In this document: one piece after another, positions 15,053 through 47,335 of the stretch
Numbering within the stretch: the first letter of the stretch is position 1
Layout of the letters: each line of letters starts with the position of its first letter
NCBI GenBank assembly: GCA_012518115.1
Contig: JAAYTD010000011.1
Coordinates: forward strand, 1 to 47,335
Source of the DNA: Ignavibacteria bacterium
GTDB lineage: Bacteria; Bacteroidota; Ignavibacteria; Kapaibacteriales; UBA2268
Length of the DNA stretch: 47,335 nt
Reading direction: 5' to 3'
Made by a program: the position numbers and the translations under genes
The notes under the pieces: model-generated
The model's database searches: none
The model's input: the letters and a program-made list of their open reading frames with translations, nothing else
Told to the model about the DNA's origin: nothing

Positions 15053-18000
15053 ATGAATCAATATATAGGAATTTGTGTAGGAGCACAAAGCATATCAATT
15101 GTTAGCGTAGAAAAAATAGAAGATAATATAACTGTAAAAAAACTTATTCAACAAACCCATAACGGTAACCCTCAAAATATATTACATAATTTTTTTAGTA
15201 ACTTCAATAATCAAGATGCAAAAATAGTAGTAACAGGACGTAAGTTCCGTCATATTATGGCAGTTACAAATATATCTGAAACAGAAGCTTCGGCTTATGC
15301 TTTAGATTTTATTGGCAAGAAGTATCCACATCTAAATTTTGATGCGATAATTTCTTTAGGTGCAGAAACATTTATGCTTTATAATATAATAGACAATAAA
15401 ATAACTGATGTTTATGCAAAGAATAAATGTGCTGCAGGTACAGGAGAATTTTTTCAGCAACAGATAAAACGAATGGATTTATCTTTAGATGAAGTCAATG
15501 GAATTAGTGAGAGTGTAGCTAGCTATAAAGTTTCGGGCAGATGTTCAGTTTTTTGTAAATCAGATTGTACGCATGCATTAAACAAAGGGGTGCCTAAAGA
15601 TAATATCGTGGTGGGACTTTGTCAAATGCTAGCTGATAAGATAGAAGAACTTATTCAAGGAAAGAATAAAGGCAAAATTTTATTGGCTGGTGGCGTGACG
15701 CGTAACAAGCTTGCTATGAAACTACTAGCGCGTAGAGGTGTGAATTATGAGCTCTTACCTGAATCAACATATTTTGAAGCTTTAGGAGCGGCTATCTTTG
15801 CGATGAAAAATGAAGAAAATTTGTTAAAATTTCCTGAATTGGATCAACTTTTTTCATCTTCTAAATCATCGTTTGTTTTCAACAAGCCGCTTAAAAATTT
15901 CACAGATAAAGTAACTTTTAAAAGTATAGAAAAACGTCAGCCATATAAAGATGAAACCTGTATTTTAGGTTTAGATGTTGGTTCTACAACTACTAAAGCA
16001 GTATTAATATCTAACGATGAAAAACCACAAATTCTTGCAAGTGTATATTTATATACTAATGGAAATCCTGTTTTAGCAGCAAAAAACTGTTATGCTGACT
16101 TATTGAAGCAGTTGCCCGACAAGGTCAATATAATAGGTTTAGGAACTACAGGCTCAGGACGACAAATAGCAGCTTTACACGCTTTAACTACAAGTGTTTA
16201 TAATGAAATTACAGCACATGCTACGGCAGCAGTGTTTTATGATAAAGAAGTAGATACAATTTTTGAAATCGGTGGACAAGATGCGAAATATACGCATATT
16301 GTCAATCGCGTTCCAACTGATTATGCGATGAATGAAGCTTGTTCGGCGGGGACAGGTTCATTTATAGAAGAAGCAGCTAAAGAATCGTTAAACGTCAATC
16401 TTCTTGATATAGAGGGTTTAGCATTTCAAGGGAAAAATCCACCGAATTTTAGCGATCAATGCGCTGCTTTTATAAGCTCTGATATAAAAACGGCTCAACA
16501 AGAGGGGCTTAGCCGTGAAGATATTGTAGCTGGTTTAACTTATTCTATTTGTCAAAATTATTTGAATCGTGTAAAGAGTAACAGACCTGTCGGCAAGAAA
16601 ATTTTTATGCAGGGCGGAGTGTGCTATAATAAAGCTGTTCCTGTAGCTATGGCAGCACTTTCAGATTCTGAAATTATTGTTCCACCTGAGCCGGGACTTA
16701 TGGGAGCTTTCGGTGTAGCTTTGCAAGTAAAGGAGAGAATAGCGCTAGGCATTACTGAAGAAGAACATTTTAATTTGGAAGAACTAGCTAGTCGCGATAT
16801 TAAACAAGTTAGTGATTTTATTTGTCCCGGTGGAAAAGAAGGTTGCGATTTAAAATGTAAAATTGCGTTATTTGATATAGAAGGAAAAAAATATGCTTTT
16901 GGTGGGGCGTGCAATAAATATAATAGAGCTAAAAATGAGGTTCATAGTAATCAAAATTTATCTGATATAAATGAAGAAATAGATTTAGTAAAAGTTCGCA
17001 ATCATTTAGTGTTTGAGAAATATGCACCTAAAGTTCCTTTGCCTGAAGCTACGAAAAGTATTGGGATAAATTTGTCATTCTATACACATAGTTTATTTCC
17101 TCTATATTATAATTTCTTTACAAAATTAGGATTTAAGGTTGTTCTTTCTGAAAACTTAGATTTTGATAATCTATGGCGGGAGCATACTTCATTTTGTTTT
17201 CCTATGCAAATTTCCTTGTGTCTGTTCCAAGATTTATTGAAACAACAAGTTGATTATATTTTCGCTCCTGCGATTTTTGAGATGGATGCAGAAAAAGAAG
17301 AAGTGCAACGTTTAGATTTCAATTGTGCTTGTGCTTTCGTTACGGGTGAACCTTATGTTCTGTCGCAAGCTTATAAAGATTTTGCAGGGTTAAAAGATAA
17401 AATCATTTCTCCAAGTCTTAATTTTAGTAATGGTTTTGAGGCTGCAAAAGATGATTTTATTAAAATTGCAAAGCAAATTTCGGGAAAGAAAAATATAGAA
17501 GAAGAAGCATCTTTGGCTTTTGATTTTGCTGTAAAAATGCAAAAAGATTGCCAGAATGATATGCGTAAAACGGCTGATAATTTCTTGAAAAATTTAAGAA
17601 AAAATCCCGATAATTTTGCAATAATTCTTTTCGGAAGAAGCTATAATTCTACATATAATAAAGCAAACAAGGGAATTCCTAAAAAATTCACTTCGCAATC
17701 TATACCGGTTATTCCTATTGATATGATTGATATTTCTGAGAGTGATGATATTGATAGAATGTATTGGGAAGCAGGTCATAGAATACTGAAAGTTGCGAAA
17801 ATAGTTAAAGATGCTCCGCAGCTTTTCGCGACTTATATTACAAATTTTTCCTGCGCTCCAGATTCAATGCTATTGAATACTTTTCGCGATATAATGCAAG
17901 AAAAACCATCGCTAACATTAGAGCTTGATAGTCATTCTGCTGATGCTGGGATTAATACGCGAATAGAAGCTGCTATTGATATTATTACAAATTATCGTGG

Positions 18001-19396
18001 TAATAAAAAGAATATACAAAACTCAATCAGACAAAAAGATTTTGTACCTGCAAGAATAGAATATACTGAGCCTATTGCAACATTTGTAAGTTCATCTGGA
18101 GATCGCGTGCCTTTGACAGATCCAAGAGTTGTAGTTCTAATTCCTGCGATGGGCGACCTAGCTAGTAAAATGGTTGCGGCAGCTTTTAAAAGTTCCGGAA
18201 TAAATTCTGTAGCTTTACCTACGCATTCCACAGAATCTTTGCAATTAGGTAGAAAATATGCAAGTGGAAAAGAGTGTTTACCAATTTTGCTTATGGCGGG
18301 AAATCTTTTGAAATATCTTGAAAATCCACAATCAGAATCACAATTTATAATTTATTTTCAAGTACAAGGTGCAGGTAATTGTCGTTTAGGGCAATATCCT
18401 GTATTTTTAGATCAACTTATAAGTAATAGAAAATTAACCGACATAGTCCAAATGGTGCTAATGAACGAAGATGGATTTGCAGGTTTAGGAACAGATTGGT
18501 CGGTAAGAGCTATTCAAGCAATAATAATTAGCGATGTACTTGCTGATATTAGGGCAGGCATTTTAACTCATGCAGTAGATCCAAAAACTGGAATAGAAAT
18601 TTTTGATAGGGAAGTTGATGTAATACTCGAAAAATTCGCAAAATCACCTAAAGATATATATGGACAACTTGAGACATTTGCAAAAGTTATAAAAAACAAT
18701 GTGCCTTCTAAAACACCTATAGAGGAATTTAAATATGTTGCTTTAATTGGTGAGATATTTTGTCGTCGGGACGAGTTTGCTAATAAAAAATTAGATGAAT
18801 ATTTTGCAAATAATGGATTTGTGCTGAAAACTGCTTATATTAGCGAATGGATTACTTATATAGATTACTTGATTTCTATAGATTTGCTTGAGTCGGAAAA
18901 ATCTTTGAAAAAGCGTTTTGAAAGAATGTTAAGAAACTTCTATATGAAAGATATAGAGAAAAAAATAAAGAAAGCTCTTGAAATTTCCGGCTACTATAAG
19001 TTTGAAAGAATGAACGTTGAACCTATTCTAAAGCATAGTAAACATATTGTTCCGCTTGAATACAAGGGCGAACCCGGTCTTACGCTTGGAATTGCACTTA
19101 ATGATATTTTAGACAAATATTGTGGCGTTATAAACTTCGGTCCTTTTGGTTGTATGCCAACACGTTTTGCTGAAGCGGTTACTGTGCCAGAAATGACAAT
19201 AGGCTGTAAAGTTGATGCCAAACGATTATATAATAAAACATACAAAGTTGGTTCTAATGGTAAAGTATTTCCGGACAACTTTCCTTTGCCATTTTTAACT
19301 ATAGAGAGTGACGGAGCTCCTTATTCACAATTAATAGAAGCACGTTTAGATGCTTTTTTATTGCAATGTCAATATGTCGCTGAAAATTTTTTCTAA
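15053..19396 (+). CDS. 2-hydroxyacyl-CoA dehydratase activase fusion protein (tandem BadF/HgdC-type ATPases)
   Basis: 1447 residues. Domain 1 (about 1-270) and domain 2 (about 305-570) are both BadF/BadG/BcrA/BcrD-type ASKHA ATPases. Domain 2 shows GLDVGSTTTKAVLI near 305 and FEIGGQDAKYTHI near 403. Both carry the cluster cysteines: KCAAGTG (C126) and RCSVF (C164), then ACSAGTG (C430) and QCAAF (C470). A Cys cluster follows (CPGGKEGCDLKCK, about 590-602). Beyond it lie a DUF2229-type region and a C-terminal region related to dehydratase subunits (GAGNCRLGQYP, NFGPFGCMPTRF). In the characterised enzyme HgdC, an ATP-driven [4Fe-4S] electron donor activates a 2-hydroxyacyl-CoA dehydratase. Long fusions like this are common in anaerobes, but their substrate is not established. 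No separate dehydratase gene is near. It is probably cytoplasmic and oxygen-sensitive. Confidence 0.88.
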   Translation: MNQYIGICVGAQSISIVSVEKIEDNITVKKLIQQTHNGNPQNILHNFFSNFNNQDAKIVVTGRKFRHIMAVTNISETEASAYALDFIGKKYPHLNFDAIISLGAETFMLYNIIDNKITDVYAKNKCAAGTGEFFQQQIKRMDLSLDEVNGISESVASYKVSGRCSVFCKSDCTHALNKGVPKDNIVVGLCQMLADKIEELIQGKNKGKILLAGGVTRNKLAMKLLARRGVNYELLPESTYFEALGAAIFAMKNEENLLKFPELDQLFSSSKSSFVFNKPLKNFTDKVTFKSIEKRQPYKDETCILGLDVGSTTTKAVLISNDEKPQILASVYLYTNGNPVLAAKNCYADLLKQLPDKVNIIGLGTTGSGRQIAALHALTTSVYNEITAHATAAVFYDKEVDTIFEIGGQDAKYTHIVNRVPTDYAMNEACSAGTGSFIEEAAKESLNVNLLDIEGLAFQGKNPPNFSDQCAAFISSDIKTAQQEGLSREDIVAGLTYSICQNYLNRVKSNRPVGKKIFMQGGVCYNKAVPVAMAALSDSEIIVPPEPGLMGAFGVALQVKERIALGITEEEHFNLEELASRDIKQVSDFICPGGKEGCDLKCKIALFDIEGKKYAFGGACNKYNRAKNEVHSNQNLSDINEEIDLVKVRNHLVFEKYAPKVPLPEATKSIGINLSFYTHSLFPLYYNFFTKLGFKVVLSENLDFDNLWREHTSFCFPMQISLCLFQDLLKQQVDYIFAPAIFEMDAEKEEVQRLDFNCACAFVTGEPYVLSQAYKDFAGLKDKIISPSLNFSNGFEAAKDDFIKIAKQISGKKNIEEEASLAFDFAVKMQKDCQNDMRKTADNFLKNLRKNPDNFAIILFGRSYNSTYNKANKGIPKKFTSQSIPVIPIDMIDISESDDIDRMYWEAGHRILKVAKIVKDAPQLFATYITNFSCAPDSMLLNTFRDIMQEKPSLTLELDSHSADAGINTRIEAAIDIITNYRGNKKNIQNSIRQKDFVPARIEYTEPIATFVSSSGDRVPLTDPRVVVLIPAMGDLASKMVAAAFKSSGINSVALPTHSTESLQLGRKYASGKECLPILLMAGNLLKYLENPQSESQFIIYFQVQGAGNCRLGQYPVFLDQLISNRKLTDIVQMVLMNEDGFAGLGTDWSVRAIQAIIISDVLADIRAGILTHAVDPKTGIEIFDREVDVILEKFAKSPKDIYGQLETFAKVIKNNVPSKTPIEEFKYVALIGEIFCRRDEFANKKLDEYFANNGFVLKTAYISEWITYIDYLISIDLLESEKSLKKRFERMLRNFYMKDIEKKIKKALEISGYYKFERMNVEPILKHSKHIVPLEYKGEPGLTLGIALNDILDKYCGVINFGPFGCMPTRFAEAVTVPEMTIGCKVDAKRLYNKTYKVGSNGKVFPDNFPLPFLTIESDGAPYSQLIEARLDAFLLQCQYVAENFF

Positions 19397-20901: not shown

Positions 20902-23877
20902 TTACTTAATTTCCATTTTTAAAACTTTTTTGGTTTTATCTGTAATTTTAAATCTGTCATTTATTCGCTTACCACAGACCCAAATTATTTCACCCGTAGA
21001 ATTTACAATTAAAAGTATGTTAGGTTTTTCTAAAATAGGAGTTTTTTCGTTAGTTAAAAAATCATTTACTTTCATTTTTCCAGTCATTCCTAAAGGTGAG
21101 AACGCATCGCCCATTTCAACATTTCTAATAGTTAGAATTGGTGTAATAAGGTTGAAATCTACATATTCAACATTAGGATTATTGCTATAATCTACCTCAT
21201 CAATGCCTACTTCTTTTAAAACAAATGTTAAATTTCCGATTACATATTTGCCTGTTTTTTCAATTTTCTCATTAATTTTATTAGGTACAGATCTTCTTGA
21301 AATAGTTATAATCTGTCTATCGCGAATTGCGAAAATATTTTTTGTGATTTCACAAATAGCACCTACATCACTATTACAAAGTTTTAGTATTCGGTCTATT
21401 GTATTCATTGAAGGTGATTGCAGCCTGAAGTATTTACGCAAAATAGAAATTAACATTTCGCCTCTTATAAACTCATCAAAAGTCTTGAAAAGAGGTAATT
21501 TAATAGATACTCTGTCTGTTGCCATATCTGTTAAAACAGACGGTAGATGAGTACGCGTATAATCATGAATTATTCTATCTGCTGAGTGTATTAATTTTGC
21601 TGCACGATTTATTATATCAACAATTGCTGGCGAATAATCTTTTTTTAGTTTTGGGATTAAGTCATTTCTTAACTTATTACGAGTATATTTGTCCAATAAA
21701 TTACTGTCGTCTTCACGCCATTCTAATTTTCTTTTTTTTGCATATTCAATAATTTTTTGTTTTTTTAGACCAATAAAAGGGCGGAATAAAATAACATCTT
21801 TTACAAATTGACGACAAGCAGGAATACCGCTTAATCCTGTAAGTCCTGTTCCTCTAAATAAGTTCAAAAGAAATGTTTCTGCTGAATCATCACTTGTGTG
21901 AGCTGTTGTTAAAAAATCAAATTTATATGTTCTTGTTATTCGTTCAAAGAAAAAATAACGCAAATAGCGTGCTGCTTCTTCTATGCTAATGCTGTTTTTT
22001 TCCGAATAATTTTTTACATTTCCAGTTTGAGAATAAAAAGGAACATTGTAAGAATCTGCTAATTTCTTTACAAATTTTTCATCTAAATTAGAAGACTCAC
22101 CTCGTAAATTATGGTTGTAATGAGCAACACAAATAGAAAAATTATATTTGGCAGATAAATTAGCCATTACATCAAGTAATACAACAGAGTCAACACCGCC
22201 ACTGACACCAACAAGGACTTTTGCGCCATTTCCAATTAACATTTCACTTATTACAAAACTTTCTACATCACGATAAAAGTTTTTGAAAAATGGATTGTTA
22301 CGTTCCTCAGCAGATAATAAACACTCAGGATTAATAGGTGCAACAACTGCTTGTTCTCTTTTAATACTATTCTTTTTCTCTTCTTTAACAGCTTTTGATA
22401 AATCTACAAAAGGTATAGGCTTAATTGGCTGAATTAATGAACTTGGCTTTATAGAAAACGTTTTGTTGTTCTTCCTGTTTGTGTTTTGATTATTCTTTTC
22501 TTTATTTCCATTTTGTTCTATTTTTTTCTCAACAGGTTTTTTTGTTTCAGCGTTTGTTTCATTTTTCTTTGTCTCAGTTTTTACTTCTTCAGCTTTTTTC
22601 CCATTTTCAACTTTTTTATTATTCTTTTTTTGTTTTTTATTGATTTTTTTTGTTTCTTCTACTTTGTTTTGAGTAGTTTGTTTTATATCCGTTTTCTTTT
22701 CTATTTCTTCTTTTATATCTTTCTCTTGTTCTTTTCCAGCAGATGTAATTACTTCGGCGTTACTTTCTACCTTGCTTTCATTTGTTTCATTTTTTTTCTC
22801 AACAGGTTTAGTTATTTCAGTGTTTTTTTCATTCTTTACTGTCTCTTCTTTTATTTTATTTGTTTCTTCTGTTTTCTTTTGAGTAATTTGCTTTATATTC
22901 GTTTTCTTTTCTATTTCTTTTTCAGTTGGCTTAGTTGTTTTAGTGTTATTTTCTTTTTTTATTTCTTTATTTCCATTTTGTTCTATTTTTTTCTCAACAG
23001 GTTTTTTTGTTTCAGCGTTTATTTCATTTTTCTTTGTCTCACTTTTTCCATCTTCAGCCTTTTTTCCATCTTCTACTTTTTTATTATTCTTTTTTTGTTT
23101 TTTATTGATTTTTTTTGTTTCTTCTACTTTGTTTTGAGTAGTTTGTTTTATATCCGTTTTCTTTTCTATTTCCTGTTTTACATTGTTTTCATTTTCTTTT
23201 TCAGCAGGTTTAACAATTTCAGTGTTACTTTCTATTTTGTTTTCTTTGTTTAATTCTTTTTCGTTTATTTCTATTTTTTTCTCAATAGTTTTTTTTGTTT
23301 CAGTATTTTTTTCATTCTTTACTGTCTCTTCTTTTATTTTATTTGTTTCTTCTGTTTTCTTTTGAGTAATTTGCTTTATATCCGTTTTCTTTTCTATTTC
23401 TTTTTCAGTTGGCTTAGTTGTTTTAGTGTTATTTTCTTTTTTTATTTCTTTGTTTTCATTTGTTTCTATTTTTTTCTCAACAGGTTTTTTTATTTCAGTG
23501 TTTTTTTCATTCTTATTAGTATCTTTTTTTAGTTCTTCAATCTTTTTTACGTTTTCTACTTTTTTATTATTCTTTTTTGTTTTTGGGATTATTTTTTTTG
23601 TTTCTTCTACTTTCTTTTGAGTAGTTTGGTTTATTTTAGTTTCCTTTTCTATTTCTTCCTTCATATCTGTCTTAGTTTCTTTCTCAACAGTTTTTGTTAT
23701 TTCACTACTATTTTCTATTTTGTTTTCTTTTATTTCTGTTTTTTTCTCAGCGTTTTTTTCATTTATCTTGTTATTTTCTTCTGTTTTTTTTTCAATAGCA
23801 TTGTTATTGCTGGGATTATTTTCTTTTATTGTATTGTTTCCAATGTTTATATTTTTATCTGTTGTATTTTTTTTCAT
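20902..23877 (-). CDS. tilS: tRNA(Ile)-lysidine synthase with a giant repetitive N-terminal extension
   Basis: The last ~445 residues are an ordinary TilS. The PP-loop SGGVDS is at about 559-564, followed by VAHYNHNLRGESS, TTAHTSDDSAETFLLNLFRGTGLTGLSGIP and the C-terminal TilS domains. TilS puts lysidine on C34 of tRNA-Ile(CAU). TilS proteins are usually about 430-450 residues; here some 545 residues precede the core. Residues 1 to about 485 are almost only K, E, N, T, I, Q and V, arranged in a long-period repeat. About 60 residues of ordinary sequence then lead into the PP-loop. No usable start codon lies between the repeat and the core. The only candidates are M1 (weak site CTGGAAAA) and a Met near residue 71, so the extension is probably translated. 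It is second behind the TPR gene, with a 30-base gap. Confidence 0.9.
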   Translation of the reverse strand: MKKNTTDKNINIGNNTIKENNPSNNNAIEKKTEENNKINEKNAEKKTEIKENKIENSSEITKTVEKETKTDMKEEIEKETKINQTTQKKVEETKKIIPKTKKNNKKVENVKKIEELKKDTNKNEKNTEIKKPVEKKIETNENKEIKKENNTKTTKPTEKEIEKKTDIKQITQKKTEETNKIKEETVKNEKNTETKKTIEKKIEINEKELNKENKIESNTEIVKPAEKENENNVKQEIEKKTDIKQTTQNKVEETKKINKKQKKNNKKVEDGKKAEDGKSETKKNEINAETKKPVEKKIEQNGNKEIKKENNTKTTKPTEKEIEKKTNIKQITQKKTEETNKIKEETVKNEKNTEITKPVEKKNETNESKVESNAEVITSAGKEQEKDIKEEIEKKTDIKQTTQNKVEETKKINKKQKKNNKKVENGKKAEEVKTETKKNETNAETKKPVEKKIEQNGNKEKNNQNTNRKNNKTFSIKPSSLIQPIKPIPFVDLSKAVKEEKKNSIKREQAVVAPINPECLLSAEERNNPFFKNFYRDVESFVISEMLIGNGAKVLVGVSGGVDSVVLLDVMANLSAKYNFSICVAHYNHNLRGESSNLDEKFVKKLADSYNVPFYSQTGNVKNYSEKNSISIEEAARYLRYFFFERITRTYKFDFLTTAHTSDDSAETFLLNLFRGTGLTGLSGIPACRQFVKDVILFRPFIGLKKQKIIEYAKKRKLEWREDDSNLLDKYTRNKLRNDLIPKLKKDYSPAIVDIINRAAKLIHSADRIIHDYTRTHLPSVLTDMATDRVSIKLPLFKTFDEFIRGEMLISILRKYFRLQSPSMNTIDRILKLCNSDVGAICEITKNIFAIRDRQIITISRRSVPNKINEKIEKTGKYVIGNLTFVLKEVGIDEVDYSNNPNVEYVDFNLITPILTIRNVEMGDAFSPLGMTGKMKVNDFLTNEKTPILEKPNILLIVNSTGEIIWVCGKRINDRFKITDKTKKVLKMEIK
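22500..23662 (-). repeat. Long-period tandem repeat encoding the TilS N-terminal extension
   Basis: Roughly 2.5 copies: copy 1 about 23178-23662, copy 2 about 22713-23177, copy 3 (partial) about 22500-22712. Each begins EIEKxTxIxQTTQxKVEETKK. Copies 1 and 2 contain a second block, TKPTEKEIEKKT-IKQITQKKTEETNK. The same DNA words recur at a period of 465-483 bases, both multiples of three. Copies 2 and 3 are much closer to each other than to copy 1. Confidence 0.85.
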
Positions 23878-25325: not shown

Positions 25326-28300
25326 CTACTTAGAAAATACGAATGATTTTATGGATATATTTTTAGATGACACTATACGAACGAAATAATTTCCACTATT
25401 CAATTTTAAATTGGATAAGTTCATTGTAAATTCATTCATTCCGTTAGTAGCTGCAACATTAGTTGTTGAAATAATACTACCACGCATATCGCATAAATCA
25501 ATTGTTACGTTTTCTGCTAAATTAGATTGATATTTTATAACTAAACTATTGCTTGTAGGATTTGGAGATAAGCTAATATAATCATTAGCTACTTCTTTGA
25601 TTCCTGTGTGAACTTCTTCTTTTTCTTCTACTTCAATAATGAATTCATCAACAAGAGTCGTTGAACAATCGTTGCTTATATATATCGCATACTTTCCTTT
25701 ATGATAAAGTTGAGCTTCATCAATTTTAAATTCATTTCCTACTATGTTCAGATAATCATATTTTGTAGTAATATCATTATACTTAGCCCAGTTAATCACA
25801 TCGGTTTGAGGATTAGCAGTTTCTATTTTCAGAACTATTTCATTGCCAACAGTATAAGTAAATGTTTCACCGTTGAATTTAGGCGTTGTAATTTCCGGAG
25901 TATAGTCTTCTAATACGGTTATCGTTACTTCATTAGATGTAATTGCAGTTGTGGTAGGATCATTTCCTTCTATCCAAATACTACAATAGAATTTTTCAGT
26001 TAAGTTTGTTGTATTGTCTATAGCTACAGTTAATTCGGCAGTTTTAGAGCCTTGATATTGAACGTTATCAACAAGTTCTGTGCCATCATAATACCATTGA
26101 TAGCGTAATTTCGTATCACTTTCGGATGAGAACACTTGAAGTGAAAGGTTAGCACTTCCATCGCTTGGACATAATACAACATCTTCAGGCTGTTTAATAA
26201 CTTTTAGATCTGCTGCCGGAATTAATAAAATTTGTTCGCTTCTTACTGCAGTGTTGCCACAACGTCCTTGAACTTCGCAATAATAATAATCGCCGTTAAA
26301 AGTATAATCAGCATCTGTAATATGGTTTATAACTAATACAGAGGCGTCAGCTCCTTTTATTTTGTAAGAATTATATAACTTTTCAGACTGTTGAGTAATT
26401 GTATTAAAACGATACCATTGGAAGTGTCCGTTAGGATAATCTTTGCTAATAGGAGCATAACTTGCTACAACTTCAAATATAGCAGTTTCACCTTCATTAG
26501 CTCTTATATTACCTTTAGTTAAAGTAATAACTTCAGTTTCAGGTAATATATATAGAGTTAAGGTATCAGAATACATTGTCCTTATTCCTTCACAAGAATT
26601 AGCTATTATTTTATAATAATATTGCCCTGCATCATCTGCAGTTACAGAAGCAAACTCTAATTCTTGGATTGTATATAAGCTATCTATATCTTCGTCATCA
26701 GATGTTAATGGTTTACCATCTTTATACCATCTTTGATAGATTGGGTCTTCACCCGCAAAATTTAAGGCTGTATAAAAGTTTTCACCTAAACATAATTCCA
26801 TTGTTTCGGGCGGTTGAAGAGTGAATTCGGCATCTCTGTAAACATATACTGAGATAGGTTCAGTATAAATAGTTGTTAAACAAGCATCTTGGGAGGAAGC
26901 TTGCATTCTTATTTTACAATCGTCGTATTTTAACGAAGCAATATATTCAAACTCTAAACTGTTTGCTGTAGGCATATCTAATACTGAAATATCAAACCAA
27001 TATCTGTTGTCTCTGCTATATTGCCAAATAACTTCCTTAAGATCACCTTCAACCTCAGCATTAATTATCATTGTCTCTCCGACGCAAAATTCATATAAGG
27101 TATCAGTATTAACAGGTTTATTATCTATATATGCTTTTGCCCATTCCAAGTTCATATCAACTTCTAATAACACTTCATATTGTTGTATTTCTGAGCAGTT
27201 ACCAGGAGGAGGTAAAAGAGATATTCTATATAAATCTTTTCCTGCTAACACATCATCAGGAGTAATGGCAATACTATCTAATCTCTCGTGTTCCATAAGT
27301 GTCCATTCTTTATTTTCATCGTCCCATACTTCCCAAGTAAATTCTGTTGCTATACCTGTATAACTAGCTTTTATACTTTTATAGGGGTCCGTAGAACATA
27401 GTCTAAGTTCAGTTTGAGGGTTTAACAACTGAATAGGTGTATAATAGATAGGTATGTTGCCGGTAATATCTACATCTTCTTCTTTAGGAGTTTGAGTTTT
27501 CCTTGCAACAACAGAAGAAACAAAATTGCCGTTTAATAAAGTGTTACAATCTGTTACATGAGGGTCAATATCATAAACAATCCAAAAATAATTGTTGCCT
27601 TCAGAAAGAAAAACTTTTTGCGAGAAAGAAACGGTAGTATTTCTATCTAAAATAGGATTATTATATCTTCCGCACAGTAAACCAGCACCATCAGAAAAAG
27701 CGTCAGATCCAGATGTATAATAAATACTTATGTTGTTAATGTATACGTCAGTAGGAGTAATTGCAGATGGATTTACAGTCATTGCAGAAACTTCCAAAGG
27801 TTTCCTACTACGTATAGTTACTATGTTAGAATTTAAAATAGCATATCGTGTGTCTGATAATCGTACAATGTTCTCTTCCGGGGTAGTAACTTCAGTGCGA
27901 AGATACGCCATATTTACTTTTTCATAATGAAATTGAATGTTAAATGCGCAAGAGTTTGTGTAAGAATAAACAGGACCAGTTAAGCTACCCCAGTATAAAT
28001 AGTAACCACGACTGCTAGCACTATAATAACGATATCCATGGTATGGTTTTCCAGTATATCTTCCGTCATTATTAACTATTTGAAATTCTATATTACTAAC
28101 ACCATCGTACATAAAAGGTGTGTCAAATTCAAATGTACGCCAGTCTCCTTCTTCTTCCACAGGGTCATACTCATCAGTAGCATATACTTTAACCCAGCCT
28201 GCAGATATTGTGTCTATTTCTACAGGAGCAGAGTTGTACATAGTTGCATCAGTATGGCGCATCCAGATGCTAAAATCTTCACATATAGTAGTATAGCTAG

Positions 28301-28556
28301 TATATTTATAGCCTATCCAAAGACTTACAGAGTGAATTTCTACTTCTTCACCAAAAGTGAGTTCACTTGCTAGATAAATACAACCACCTGAAGAATAAGG
28401 AGAGTAGAAATATGGCATCATCGTATTATATGAAACGTAAGAGCCATTAGAAGGTAACGTCAAAGTATCCAATGCATTAGCGCTAAAATTACTTAGCAAT
28501 ATAATAGCTAGACACGCTATCATATTATTTAAAAATTTTGAAAGATTTGTTTTCAT
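25326..28556 (-). CDS. Large secreted protein with BNR-associated and Ig-like domains and T9SS sorting domain
   Basis: 1076 residues. The signal peptide ends near SANA (residue 28). The N-terminal ~200 residues are rich in Tyr/Ser/Gly and beta strands. A region about 225-360 (ITPTDVYINNISIYYTSG...FLSEGNNYFWIVYDIDPHV) resembles the BNR-repeat-associated N-terminal domain of Bacteroidota sialidases. Several Ig-like domains follow to about 980, with repeated LCLGENF, DDAGQYYYKI, FNGDYYYCEV and QGRCGNT phrases. The end is a T9SS sorting domain starting YISLSPNPTSNSLVIKY. No catalytic BNR Asp-boxes are apparent, so adhesion is likelier than sialidase activity. Monocistronic, ended by the strong hairpin at 25242-25285. 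Confidence 0.85.
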   Translation of the reverse strand: MKTNLSKFLNNMIACLAIILLSNFSANALDTLTLPSNGSYVSYNTMMPYFYSPYSSGGCIYLASELTFGEEVEIHSVSLWIGYKYTSYTTICEDFSIWMRHTDATMYNSAPVEIDTISAGWVKVYATDEYDPVEEEGDWRTFEFDTPFMYDGVSNIEFQIVNNDGRYTGKPYHGYRYYSASSRGYYLYWGSLTGPVYSYTNSCAFNIQFHYEKVNMAYLRTEVTTPEENIVRLSDTRYAILNSNIVTIRSRKPLEVSAMTVNPSAITPTDVYINNISIYYTSGSDAFSDGAGLLCGRYNNPILDRNTTVSFSQKVFLSEGNNYFWIVYDIDPHVTDCNTLLNGNFVSSVVARKTQTPKEEDVDITGNIPIYYTPIQLLNPQTELRLCSTDPYKSIKASYTGIATEFTWEVWDDENKEWTLMEHERLDSIAITPDDVLAGKDLYRISLLPPPGNCSEIQQYEVLLEVDMNLEWAKAYIDNKPVNTDTLYEFCVGETMIINAEVEGDLKEVIWQYSRDNRYWFDISVLDMPTANSLEFEYIASLKYDDCKIRMQASSQDACLTTIYTEPISVYVYRDAEFTLQPPETMELCLGENFYTALNFAGEDPIYQRWYKDGKPLTSDDEDIDSLYTIQELEFASVTADDAGQYYYKIIANSCEGIRTMYSDTLTLYILPETEVITLTKGNIRANEGETAIFEVVASYAPISKDYPNGHFQWYRFNTITQQSEKLYNSYKIKGADASVLVINHITDADYTFNGDYYYCEVQGRCGNTAVRSEQILLIPAADLKVIKQPEDVVLCPSDGSANLSLQVFSSESDTKLRYQWYYDGTELVDNVQYQGSKTAELTVAIDNTTNLTEKFYCSIWIEGNDPTTTAITSNEVTITVLEDYTPEITTPKFNGETFTYTVGNEIVLKIETANPQTDVINWAKYNDITTKYDYLNIVGNEFKIDEAQLYHKGKYAIYISNDCSTTLVDEFIIEVEEKEEVHTGIKEVANDYISLSPNPTSNSLVIKYQSNLAENVTIDLCDMRGSIISTTNVAATNGMNEFTMNLSNLKLNSGNYFVRIVSSKNISIKSFVFSK

Positions 28557-45087: not shown

Positions 45088-47335
45088 TTAATTTTTAATA
45101 ACTTTTCCTATCTTTCCTTTTGTTATTACTAGATATACTCCCGCCGGCAGATTTGAAATATCAATTTCTGTTGTTTCGGCATTAAGTATTTTGCTATATA
45201 AAACCTCGCCTGTTAAATTTAATATTTTTATTTCATCTGAAATAAATTTACTATCAATATACAACTTACCTGCAGTAGGATTAGGATAAATATCTAACCA
45301 TTCTATTTCACAAATACTTCCGTTTACTTTAAGTATAGCATCGCAATAACTGGATTCAGTAAATTTGTTTTTTTGTTCACTAGTTAAATACAGAATAAAA
45401 CCTTCAGCTTGATTACAACAGTGTAGTTTCCCTAAACTTAAGAGCGGGCTAATATCTAAGCTATTAAGCATGTTTTTTTTACAATATAAAAGTTCTAAAT
45501 TTGTATTTTTACTCACATCTAAGTTACTTAATTGATTATCAGAACAATACAATTGTTTTAATTCTATGTTTTTACTTATATCTAAATTGTTTAGTTGGTT
45601 ATTATAACAATATAATGCTTCTATATTTATATTTTTACTTACATCTAAGTTACTTAGTTGATTATCAAAACAACCTAGTTCCATTAATTTTATATTACTT
45701 GTAACATCTAAGTTGGTTAGTTGATTCTTAAAACAATGTAATGCTTCTAATTTTATGTTCTTGCTTATGTCTAAGTTATTTAATGGATTATGATTACATT
45801 TTAAATACGTTAGTTCGATGTTGTTACTTACATCTAAGTTACTTAGTTGATTGTCAGAACAAGCTAGTTTTATTAATTTTAGATTGCTTGTAACATCTAA
45901 GTTAGTTAATCGATTGTTGCTACAATTTAATTCTTCTAGTTCTATATTGTTACTTAAATCTAATTCACTCAAATGACTATGAAAACATATTAATGTCTTC
46001 AAATTTAGCATATGTCTAATTAATTCATCTATGCTAAAAATCTGGAATTTTTTAAAATCTAAATCTTCTATTTTTGCTAATGCTTCTAAATTTGTCGCAG
46101 TACTATCTATTCCACCATTTTCATTTACAACAACTTCAGGTAATTTATCTGCATTAAGTTTTATCCATTCTTTTAATTTTGGATTTGTTATTAATTCAGT
46201 ATATAACATAGCATCGCAATAATCTTCTTTAGTAAATTTGCTTTTTTGTTCATTAGTTAAATGCAGAATAAAACCTTCAGCTTGATTACAACAGTTTAGC
46301 ACTACTAAGTTTTTTGACGAACTAATATTTAAGTTAGTTAGTTGATTATTATTACAATGCAAACTTTCTAGTTTTATGTTTTTACTTACATCTAATTCAA
46401 TCAAAGAATTAAAGGAACATATTAATGTCTTCAAGTTTGGCATATATCTAATTAATTCATCTATACTAACAAGGCTAGAGGAATTATTACATTCTAAACT
46501 CTCTATTTTTGCTAACGCTTCTAAATTTGTTGTAGTGCTAGTTATTCCACCATCTGCATTTACAACAACTTTAGGTAATTTATGTGTATTAGATTTTATC
46601 CATTCTTTTAATTGTGGGTCTGTTATTAGTTCAGTAGGAATTACAGCTAGTATAGCATCACAATAATCTTCCTCAGTAAATTTGCCTTTAAAGTACAGAA
46701 TAAAATCTTCCGCTTGATTACAACAGTTTAAATACCATAAACATTTTATCCATCTAATATCTAAGTTGTTAAGCATATTATCGTTACACCATAAAGAAGC
46801 TAGCCCTATATTTTTACTAACATCTAAATTAGTTAATTGATTAAAAGAACAATTTAAAGTTTCTAAATGTATATTATTTGTAAGATCTAGGTTAGTTAGG
46901 TGATTATGAGAACAATATAATCCGCTTAATTTTATATTCTTGCTTATGTCTAAATTAGTCAATTGATTAGAAGAACAACCTAAAGACGTTAGTTCTATAT
47001 TGTTACTTACATCTAAATTGTTTAATGGATTAGAAGAACAATCTAAAGACGTTAGTTCTATATTGTTACTTACATCTAAATTGGTCAATTGATTAGAAGA
47101 ACAATATAGCCCTTCTAATTTTACGTTTTTACTTACATCTACATTAGTTAATTGATTAGAATAGCAAGCTAAGTATATTAAATTAATATTTTTGCTCACA
47201 TCTAAGTTATTTAATTGATTAAAAGAACAATTTAAAAATCTTAGTTCAATGTTTTTGCTTACATTTAGGTTAGTTAGTTGATTCCTATAACAATCTAACG
47301 TTTTTAGTTCTATGCTACCACTTAAATCTAGGTTA
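45088..47335 (-). CDS. Cys-ladder leucine-rich-repeat surface protein with T9SS sorting domain (5' partial)
   Basis: The frame stays open to the window edge (codons from 47334), so the N-terminus is missing. The body is a 21-residue repeat, consensus NLDVSKNIELxxLxCSxNQLT, with one Cys per turn. This Cys ladder is known from internalin-J-like LRR proteins. About ten units, one short group of two and then about nine units are separated by non-LRR inserts. Each LRR block ends in the phrase CCNQAE-FIL, and inserts carry YCDAI, ELIT-P-LKEWIK and VVVN--GGI. The third such phrase leads straight into a T9SS sorting domain (WLDIYPNPTAGKLYID ... GKIGKVIKN). Predicted surface adhesin; ligand unknown. 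The DNA repeats invite recombination between blocks. Confidence 0.88.
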   Translation of the reverse strand, partial: NLDLSGSIELKTLDCYRNQLTNLNVSKNIELRFLNCSFNQLNNLDVSKNINLIYLACYSNQLTNVDVSKNVKLEGLYCSSNQLTNLDVSNNIELTSLDCSSNPLNNLDVSNNIELTSLGCSSNQLTNLDISKNIKLSGLYCSHNHLTNLDLTNNIHLETLNCSFNQLTNLDVSKNIGLASLWCNDNMLNNLDIRWIKCLWYLNCCNQAEDFILYFKGKFTEEDYCDAILAVIPTELITDPQLKEWIKSNTHKLPKVVVNADGGITSTTTNLEALAKIESLECNNSSSLVSIDELIRYMPNLKTLICSFNSLIELDVSKNIKLESLHCNNNQLTNLNISSSKNLVVLNCCNQAEGFILHLTNEQKSKFTKEDYCDAMLYTELITNPKLKEWIKLNADKLPEVVVNENGGIDSTATNLEALAKIEDLDFKKFQIFSIDELIRHMLNLKTLICFHSHLSELDLSNNIELEELNCSNNRLTNLDVTSNLKLIKLACSDNQLSNLDVSNNIELTYLKCNHNPLNNLDISKNIKLEALHCFKNQLTNLDVTSNIKLMELGCFDNQLSNLDVSKNINIEALYCYNNQLNNLDISKNIELKQLYCSDNQLSNLDVSKNTNLELLYCKKNMLNSLDISPLLSLGKLHCCNQAEGFILYLTSEQKNKFTESSYCDAILKVNGSICEIEWLDIYPNPTAGKLYIDSKFISDEIKILNLTGEVLYSKILNAETTEIDISNLPAGVYLVITKGKIGKVIKN
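45330..46735 (-). repeat. Repeated CCNQAE-type module within the leucine-rich-repeat gene
   Basis: Three copies of the block starting CCNQAE, followed by FIL, KFTE and YCDAI, lie near 46735, 46294 and 45424 (reading down the minus strand). The first two continue into long, similar inserts: ELIT, LKEWIK, a VVVN-GGI turn, TNLEALAKIE, and SIDELIR-MxNLKTLIC. Between them the LRR array restarts. The pattern suggests duplication of a whole LRR-plus-insert unit. Confidence 0.8.

Follow-up and report, generated by a model that had tools for sequence, protein, structure and literature searches.

A disordered-looking N-terminal arm on the lysidine synthetase TilS of an Ignavibacteria bacterium and of many of its relatives

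We analysed a 47,335-nucleotide stretch of DNA from an Ignavibacteria bacterium (hereafter the window), which is the entire contig C78 of a draft assembly of 92 contigs, with respect to its tilS gene, whose product is a tRNA-modifying enzyme. Judged by sequence and fold, this gene makes a long TilS, a lysidine synthetase preceded by a disordered-looking arm of ~508 residues. Such arms recur in the order to which the bacterium belongs, built from repeats that differ between genera, and a flexible, RNA-binding role is the reading that we tentatively favour for them. The tilS gene is reported to be essential (PMC11938285).

The tilS gene and its N-terminal arm

The gene is a single open frame of 991 codons plus stop, at 20902-23877 on the minus strand, with its ATG at 23877 and its stop codon ending at 20902; the whole protein has a computed mass of 114.5 kDa. 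The TilS part is formed by the last ~440 residues, as testified by two NCBIfam models, Pfam, solved structures and the fold. TIGR02432 (TilS N) matches the protein with 201.7 bits for a cut-off of 93.6, TIGR02433 (TilS C) matches residues 915–959 with 24.9 bits for a cut-off of 20.2, and PF01171 matches with E 3e-54, while PF11734 reaches 17 bits, below its Pfam cut-off of 22. The core also matches the sequences of the solved TilS 3a2k, 1wy5 and 1ni5, and its best Foldseek match is 3a2k_A (E 7.7e-32, TM-score 0.68 by query). In an alignment of 44 sequences, the S, G, G, D and S of the SGGxDS motif are invariant. With the TilS core as query, a single place is hit in the 2.48-Mb genome; at E 0.001, TIGR02432 has three matches in this genome, and the window tilS is the only one among the matches listed. 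The first-pass annotation, which had proposed a TilS with a long, repetitive, charged N-terminal extension at these coordinates, was thus right in position, strand, frame and identity. The features of the gene, all on the minus strand, are as follows.

20902..23877, minus strand: tilS with the N-terminal extension (open frame; TIGR02432 and TIGR02433 over cut-off; one genomic place)
20926..21135, minus strand: TilS C-terminal domain (PF11734), residues 915–984 (below the Pfam cut-off; TIGR02433 over cut-off)
21664..22221, minus strand: PP-loop ATPase domain (PF01171), residues 553–738 (E 3e-54)
22240..22242, minus strand: internal ATG, codon 546, 13 codons before SGGVDS (the sole ATG, GTG or TTG between codon 72 and the PP-loop)
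22243..22353, minus strand: leader, residues 509–545, predicted to be ordered from ~513, with helices just before ATG 546 (AlphaFold2; leader aligned in relatives)
22354..23877, minus strand: Lys/Glu/Asn/Thr-rich, disordered-looking extension, residues 1–508 (composition; predicted local distance difference test score, pLDDT, below 50 at residues 473–509)
22484..22783, minus strand: 300-nucleotide repeat copy, reference of family D1 (repeat comparison)
22949..23248, minus strand: 300-nucleotide D1 copy, 89% identical to the reference, spacing 465 bp or 155 codons (repeat comparison)
23432..23731, minus strand: 300-nucleotide D1 copy, 79% identical to the reference, 483 bp or 161 codons from the preceding copy (repeat comparison)
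22776..23075, minus strand: reference of repeat family D3, with a partner at 23259-23558, 89% identical, spacing 483 bp (repeat comparison)

The arm (residues 1–508) is 48% charged (fraction 0.476), with an excess of Lys/Arg over Asp/Glu of +36, an isoelectric point of 9.5 and two aromatic residues. Its charges are better mixed than in shuffled sequences (delta 0.039 versus 0.077, standard deviation 0.010). The three 300-nucleotide D1 copies and their two spacings bear out the period of 155–161 codons read in the first-pass annotation, and the protein sequence of the arm matches itself with an identity of 0.36 at a lag of 155 and of 0.43 at a lag of 161. As that annotation had also noted, the frame stays open through the array; when the first 508 codons were shuffled 2000 times by mononucleotide, an in-frame stop arose every time, and an open frame of such length is therefore not a product of chance. 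The longest exact repeat in the array measures 98 bp and the assembly is a draft, so that the copy number in the window could be wrong. An assembly artefact as the source of the arm as a whole, which the annotation had held out as a way for its claim to fail, is rejected, since many relatives carry extensions of their own. Likewise, the arm is not a sequence dispersed through the genome: used as a query of its own genome at E 0.1, it matches only itself (150 of 235 candidates scored).

The boundary between arm and enzyme was placed with an AlphaFold2 model of residues 473–991, based on the 44-sequence alignment, residues 1–472 lying outside the model. The mean pLDDT is 90, with residues 473–509 below 50 and the chain confident from ~513: the block mean is 94 for residues 513–522, and helices are predicted at 523–527 and 529–545. 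A long extension is therefore present as first described, but its disordered part would comprise ~508 rather than ~545 residues, the chain being predicted to be ordered from ~513. A single-sequence AlphaFold run on the whole protein gives no helix or strand in residues 1–494, at a confidence below 50 for 957 of the 991 residues, core included, too low for a reliable model. Within the first 560 codons, the only in-frame start codons are ATG 1, ATG 72 and ATG 546, without any GTG or TTG. The view that no internal start is available before the core needs amending in so far as ATG 546 exists; this codon sits, though, behind the two predicted domain helices.

The arms of related TilS proteins

Family and order are used here as labelled in the genome collection, and frames were counted by hand. 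TilS is matched in 47 of 54 genomes of the window's family and in 113 of 123 genomes of the order. Frames of at least 560 residues occur in 54 of these 113 genomes; one, G063, has no arm-like sequence, which leaves real long frames in 53 genomes and in seven of the ten families of the order. By family, frames of at least 560 residues are found in 20/47 genomes of f1, 1/1 of f3, 8/8 of f5, 1/1 of f6, 9/10 of f7, 3/3 of f8, 11/12 of f9, 1/23 of f4 and none of the five of f2 or the three of f10; within f5–f9 together, 32 of 34 TilS-bearing genomes have them. The comparison of TilS lengths that the first-pass annotation had called for thus changes its picture: what it treated as the oddity of one genome extends through most families of the order. 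Two f4 frames of 556 and 609 residues (loci L091 and L092) do not carry arms, as judged by eye.

Outside the order, the class (294 genomes) and the phylum (296 genomes) were covered by their best matches. Among the matches listed, TilS frames span ~320–540 residues, except in G135, G153, G183, G357 and G361 (614). By eye, the upstream frames of G183 and G357 are not arm-like, and an ATG precedes SGG by 27 codons in the former and by 26 in the latter; G135 and G153 were considered as further N-terminal arms and proved to have C-terminal tails. A scan of the named genome collection returned one distant relative only, L031, from a metagenome-assembled genome of Bacillota (29%).

Some genomes of the window's family raise the question of TilS presence itself. 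Seven of the 54 give no TilS match, nor does any of these have a TIGR02432 match over cut-off. Among them, G004, G016, G034 and G043 have a completeness of 90% or more and a contamination of 5% or less, so that either an assembly gap or a true absence may apply; G016, without a TilS match, belongs to the same genus as the window. Conversely, two TilS matches of equal score and frame length (L039 and L097, on contigs C24 and C4 of G036) perhaps reflect a duplicated assembly stretch.

Arm statistics were computed on 76 frames, i.e. 79 less L090 (f10), L091 and L092 (f4). Arms of at least 90 residues are present in 49 of them, with a median of 320 residues and a longest arm of 788, some being cut by contig ends. 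The repeats, read at the fronts of the genes retrieved, are not the same from one genus to the next: KENT-type in the window, KQNPNQI in genus g24, PKAKAKPK in L037, AAKKPAAK followed by QNKQQ in L064, DRRDERRGDRR in L063, RNRRGRRGGRNRNRNRR in L062, and both LSYWQQRRLQKKLKQ and ILPVPADKVLP in L060 and L061. The extensions of L010–L012 and L064 are Asn/Gln-rich, and the Asp/Arg-rich arms of L062 and L063 are near charge balance. Nevertheless, 47 of the 49 measured extensions are net positive. The ratio K/(K+R) drops as the GC content of the core rises (rho -0.81). With one sequence per genus, 11 of 351 pairs align above shuffled sequences (z >5; median z 0.63), and an early in-frame ATG reading M[APKN][KR] is present in 27 of the 41 frames whose 5' end is not cut (16 of 24 genera), both counts including L092, which is not an arm. 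The mixing of charges follows no common trend in 46 extensions, 3 having z below -2 and 16 above 2, with a median of 0.60. Lengths vary between close relatives, 376 and 497 residues in genus g63 and 180, 303 and 328 in g16. Because the repeats differ between genera while most arms stay net positive, the sequences suggest that evolution keeps the chemistry of the arm rather than its sequence.

The tails of G135 and G153 (L208 and L209) belong to genus g63 of family f13, in the same class and outside the order. They are C-terminal and disordered-looking, with 376 and 497 residues as cut by script at slightly different places, and consist of Gln/Pro-rich repeats followed towards the end by stretches such as AAKKAAAKK and AAKRPAKK, for a net charge of +34 and +45. 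The two cores are 97% identical, the tails differ by 19 indels, every one of them in frame, and their third codon position is the most changed; the remaining three genomes of f13 have TilS frames of 475–485 residues. Of all single observations, this separate tail hints most strongly that a disordered, positively charged arm is useful to TilS as such.

In 12 close pairs, the ratio of nonsynonymous to synonymous changes (pN/pS) is 0.26–0.62 in the arm versus 0.04–0.21 in the core; it was computed from protein alignments of repeats, which are biased to identity, so that the values may be too low. It is below 1 in the arm of all 12 pairs and amounts to 2.6 to 6.9 times the core value within the same pairs. 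In DNA alignments of the arms built without regard to frame, the third codon position is the most changed in 11 of 11, and 39 of 51 indels are divisible by three, as are 28 of 30 when only the nine closest pairs are taken. Low pN/pS, excess of third-position changes and mostly in-frame indels together indicate that the arms of relatives are translated and weakly constrained at the protein level.

The specificity of the arm to TilS was assessed in samples that each amount to roughly one tenth of a genome at most: 246 kb of the window's own genome, G000, where 4 of the 20 stretches are entirely N, plus 129, 140 and 108 kb from three other genomes. Each open reading frame (ORF) of at least 150 residues was scored by its 150-residue stretch poorest in order-promoting residues. 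ORFs as poor in such residues as TilS number 0 of 153 readable ones in G000 (four masked ones dropped), 0 of 92 in G060, 0 of 119 in G089 and 1 of 59 in G107, so that TilS ranks first or second in the sampled parts of the four genomes. When charge minus the order-promoting share is considered, TilS is first of 183 ORFs in the own-genome sample plus the window, masked ORFs counted. A genome-wide habit of low complexity finds no support in these samples. On contig C11 of G000, an RluA-family pseudouridine synthase (L104:16478-17590, TIGR00005 over cut-off) has an Asp/Glu-rich acidic stretch immediately ahead of its best-matched part.

Known counterparts and readings of the arm

The TilS of solved structure (PDB entries 3a2k, 1ni5 and 1wy5/2e21/2e89) share the PP-loop domain, the C-terminal domain and the fold with the window TilS but, with chains of 311–464 residues, lack such an arm. 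In the open-access literature searched, as far as its accessible text goes, no bacterial TilS with such an arm is described, and the sole TilS with a described N-terminal extension is the apicoplast enzyme of Plasmodium falciparum, with 1245 residues of which a 180-residue N-terminal extension is a transit peptide for apicoplast trafficking (PMC12069591). Both are N-terminally extended TilS; the window, in contrast, comes from a bacterial host and its arm is repetitive, charged and variable. An organelle transit peptide does not fit a prokaryote genome of 2.48 Mb with a gene for a type IX secretion system (T9SS) sorting domain in the window.

For an essential bacterial RNA-dependent factor, the closest precedent is Rho of Bacteroides thetaiotaomicron (BtRho), the only such factor found, in the literature searched and as far as its accessible text goes, to have a disordered region whose function has been studied. 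It carries 176 Lys/Glu-rich and 68 Asn/Gln-rich disordered residues, conserved in amino acid content and not in length or sequence, and a study of this region reports that it promotes condensation with RNA (PMC13269538). The TilS arms are similar in that Lys/Glu-rich disorder is borne by an essential RNA-dependent factor and content is conserved rather than sequence, with Lys giving way to Arg, Gln or Asn across genera. They differ in that the charge-dense stretches of BtRho are conserved across Bacteroides species, whereas the window arm has well-mixed charges and arms of different genera seldom align. Stretches of the BtRho type are thus absent from the window arm, and 16 of 46 extensions, the window's excluded, are blockier than shuffles.

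The appended domain of eukaryotic lysyl-tRNA synthetase (LysRS) is short and basic. In the human enzyme it is disordered, binds RNA, shifts to helix on doing so and is absent from the prokaryotic counterparts (PMC6213541). Among disordered additions to enzymes of tRNA, this domain is the closest tested precedent. The TilS arms are likewise disordered, net basic N-terminal additions to a tRNA enzyme, a likeness in working for which we claim no homology, and they differ in reaching 788 residues, with repeats and little shared sequence. More generally, Lys/Arg-rich low-complexity regions of prokaryotic proteins have been linked to DNA or RNA binding (PMC6821194); the likeness lies in composition, and TilS is not named in the accessible part of that work. 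The kind of feature, a disordered region on an essential RNA enzyme, is therefore known, while this instance, its spread and its genus-specific repeats look new.

We favour reading the arm as a selected, composition-conserved, flexible and mostly electrostatic RNA-binding arm because composition is kept, sequence is free, Lys and Arg are exchangeable and the enzyme acts on one tRNA; we judge this proposal to fall a little short of probable. Such an arm would raise the local tRNA concentration, or hold TilS near RNA or ribosomes, and might act like the disordered appended domain of eukaryotic LysRS, while recombination between repeats could freely change its length and repeat units, provided that charge and disorder are preserved. 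The disordered polyampholyte of the first-pass annotation agrees with the disorder-like composition, the polyampholyte character and the in-frame growth of repeats; that the arm tethers TilS to RNA or ribosomes, as also proposed there, we infer only. It is a more doubtful step, although we entertain it, that a tRNA-modifying enzyme has turned into a disordered-arm enzyme in most families of the order, and again at the other end outside it, with chemistry selected and sequence rebuilt from new repeats, and with the arm as a general RNA-capture or compartment device coupling AUA decoding to cell state.

Several observations weigh against a selected RNA-binding arm. The window arm is near charge balance, with a net charge of +0.07 per residue, the arms of L038, L062 and L063 are close to neutral, and the Lys+Arg share of the arms ranges from 0.11 to 0.30 (median 0.20), with a weak drop as GC rises (rho -0.33, p 0.02). 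In 340 of 351 genus pairs, the arms are not alignable beyond composition. The pN/pS values could reflect only the avoidance of stops and hydrophobic residues, and 12 of 51 indels have frame-breaking lengths, 10 of which come from the two pairs that diverge most. TilS must work without a long arm in f2, f10, 22 of 23 f4 genomes and 27 of the 47 in f1, where the frame is shorter than 560 residues. When the long/short label is traced over a quick tree of 79 cores, it must change 11 times, with a minimum of 4 by starred branches, compared with 24 in shuffles; the L081 row of this tree, which lacks an early in-frame ATG, was mislabelled and counted as short. Given these label changes and the near-fixation of long frames in f5–f9, an early gain with several losses appears the simpler account, and repeated gains may apply too.

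The alternatives, which together with RNA binding are not all mutually exclusive, each explain part of this record. A near-neutral expansion, i.e. a dispensable N-terminus growing and shrinking by repeat recombination and filtered against stops, hydrophobic stretches and harmful charge, would account for repeats that change from genus to genus, for length differences between close relatives, for the many short frames of f1, f2, f10 and f4 and for the raised pN/pS of the arm relative to the core. We consider it rather unlikely, but a serious rival; indeed, the neutral expansion that the first-pass annotation had allowed for is disfavoured in its pure form by pN/pS below 1 throughout, by the long frames of f5–f9, by the near-absence of comparable sequences from other sampled ORFs (a single one, in G107) and by the distinct C-terminal tail that TilS bears in g63. 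It is unlikely, too, that the arm drives condensates, making TilS join or form RNA-dependent ones as BtRho does, an idea compatible with RNA binding. The Lys/Glu-rich and Asn/Gln-rich disorder of BtRho has its like in the Lys/Glu-rich window arm and in the Asn/Gln-rich extensions, and positively charged BtRho motifs are reported to drive co-condensation with RNA (PMC13269538); the short conserved charge-dense stretches of BtRho contrast, however, with the well-mixed charges of the window, with the lack of a common patterning trend in the 46 extensions and with the two aromatic residues of the window arm.

Charge mixing would suit a solubility or spacing bristle, a polyampholyte of well-mixed charges that maintains TilS solubility or curbs crowding but binds nothing specifically, as the charged fraction and near balance of the window arm and the near balance of L062 and L063 could indicate. 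This we regard as improbable: it leaves unexplained why TilS rather than other sampled proteins should bear the arm and why the sign is so persistently positive, and good mixing is not general among the extensions. The E. coli TilS has only about 20 residues ahead of its SGG motif. With such a short front in mind, translation might also, or only, start at ATG 546, in frame and 13 codons before SGGVDS, the arm then being rarely made. Start codons (ATG, GTG or TTG) lie 70 to 17 codons before SGG in 39 of 49 long genes, 20 of them with an ATG, so that a short form is possible there by sequence, which again counts against the favoured reading. However, they are absent from this interval in the other 10, the window's included, and L015 has no such codon ahead of the PP-loop apart from the distal ATG. 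A start at 546 would moreover remove two helices predicted with high confidence, in a region aligned across relatives, and the arms of relatives bear a coding signature. The start near the core by which the first-pass annotation would have been overturned is hence disfavoured by these helices and genes, and two products or a late start seem to us very improbable.

Beyond Rho, TilS offers a further essential enzyme on which dozens of natural arms of varied length, charge and repeat type are set on a conserved core. Genera with long arms and their sister genera without them form a comparative set on which property of disorder is selected, and which bears as well on whether disorder on a tRNA-modifying enzyme alters AUA decoding.

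Substrate tRNA, genomes without TilS and other genes of the window

Among 32 of 40 tRNA matches read in G000, three have a CAU anticodon. By our own assignment, one, which begins CGCGGGG and has a GGG/CCC anticodon stem, is taken as the initiator, and another, near-identical to a CAU tRNA of G252, as the elongator. The third begins GGGCCTGTAGCTCA (starting GGGCC), differs from both CAU tRNAs read in G252, which is without TilS, and is likely to be tRNA-Ile2(CAU), the substrate of TilS. A tRNA-Ile with a UAU anticodon was not found among these 32 matches, the other eight being long (at least 82 bases), as are Ser and Leu tRNAs. Another derivative of C34 is reported in a subset of bacteria (PMC11938285), and the final base made here may therefore differ from lysidine.

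Families f15 and f22 of the class seem to lack TilS. The PP-loop model PF01171 is over cut-off in none of their 10 genomes (3 with weak matches), the control being over cut-off in 14 of 14; the genomes are G252 (closed, f15), G127, G137, G146, G164, G172, G179, G224, G249 and G258, with loci L155, L193 and L195. Among 35 of 42 tRNA matches read, G252 has a tRNA-Ile with a UAU anticodon besides two CAU tRNAs and, given this tRNA-Ile, probably reads AUA without lysidine.

Elsewhere in the window, the gene with the T9SS type A sorting domain (25326-28556, minus strand; TIGR04183 over cut-off) encodes a large protein and suggests an assignment to Bacteroidota; a 1447-residue acyl-CoA dehydratase activase protein is encoded at 15053-19396 on the plus strand, with TIGR00241 over cut-off in two stretches. 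Near the contig end, at 45481-47298, arrays of a 63-bp unit (21 codons) resemble leucine-rich repeats by eye.

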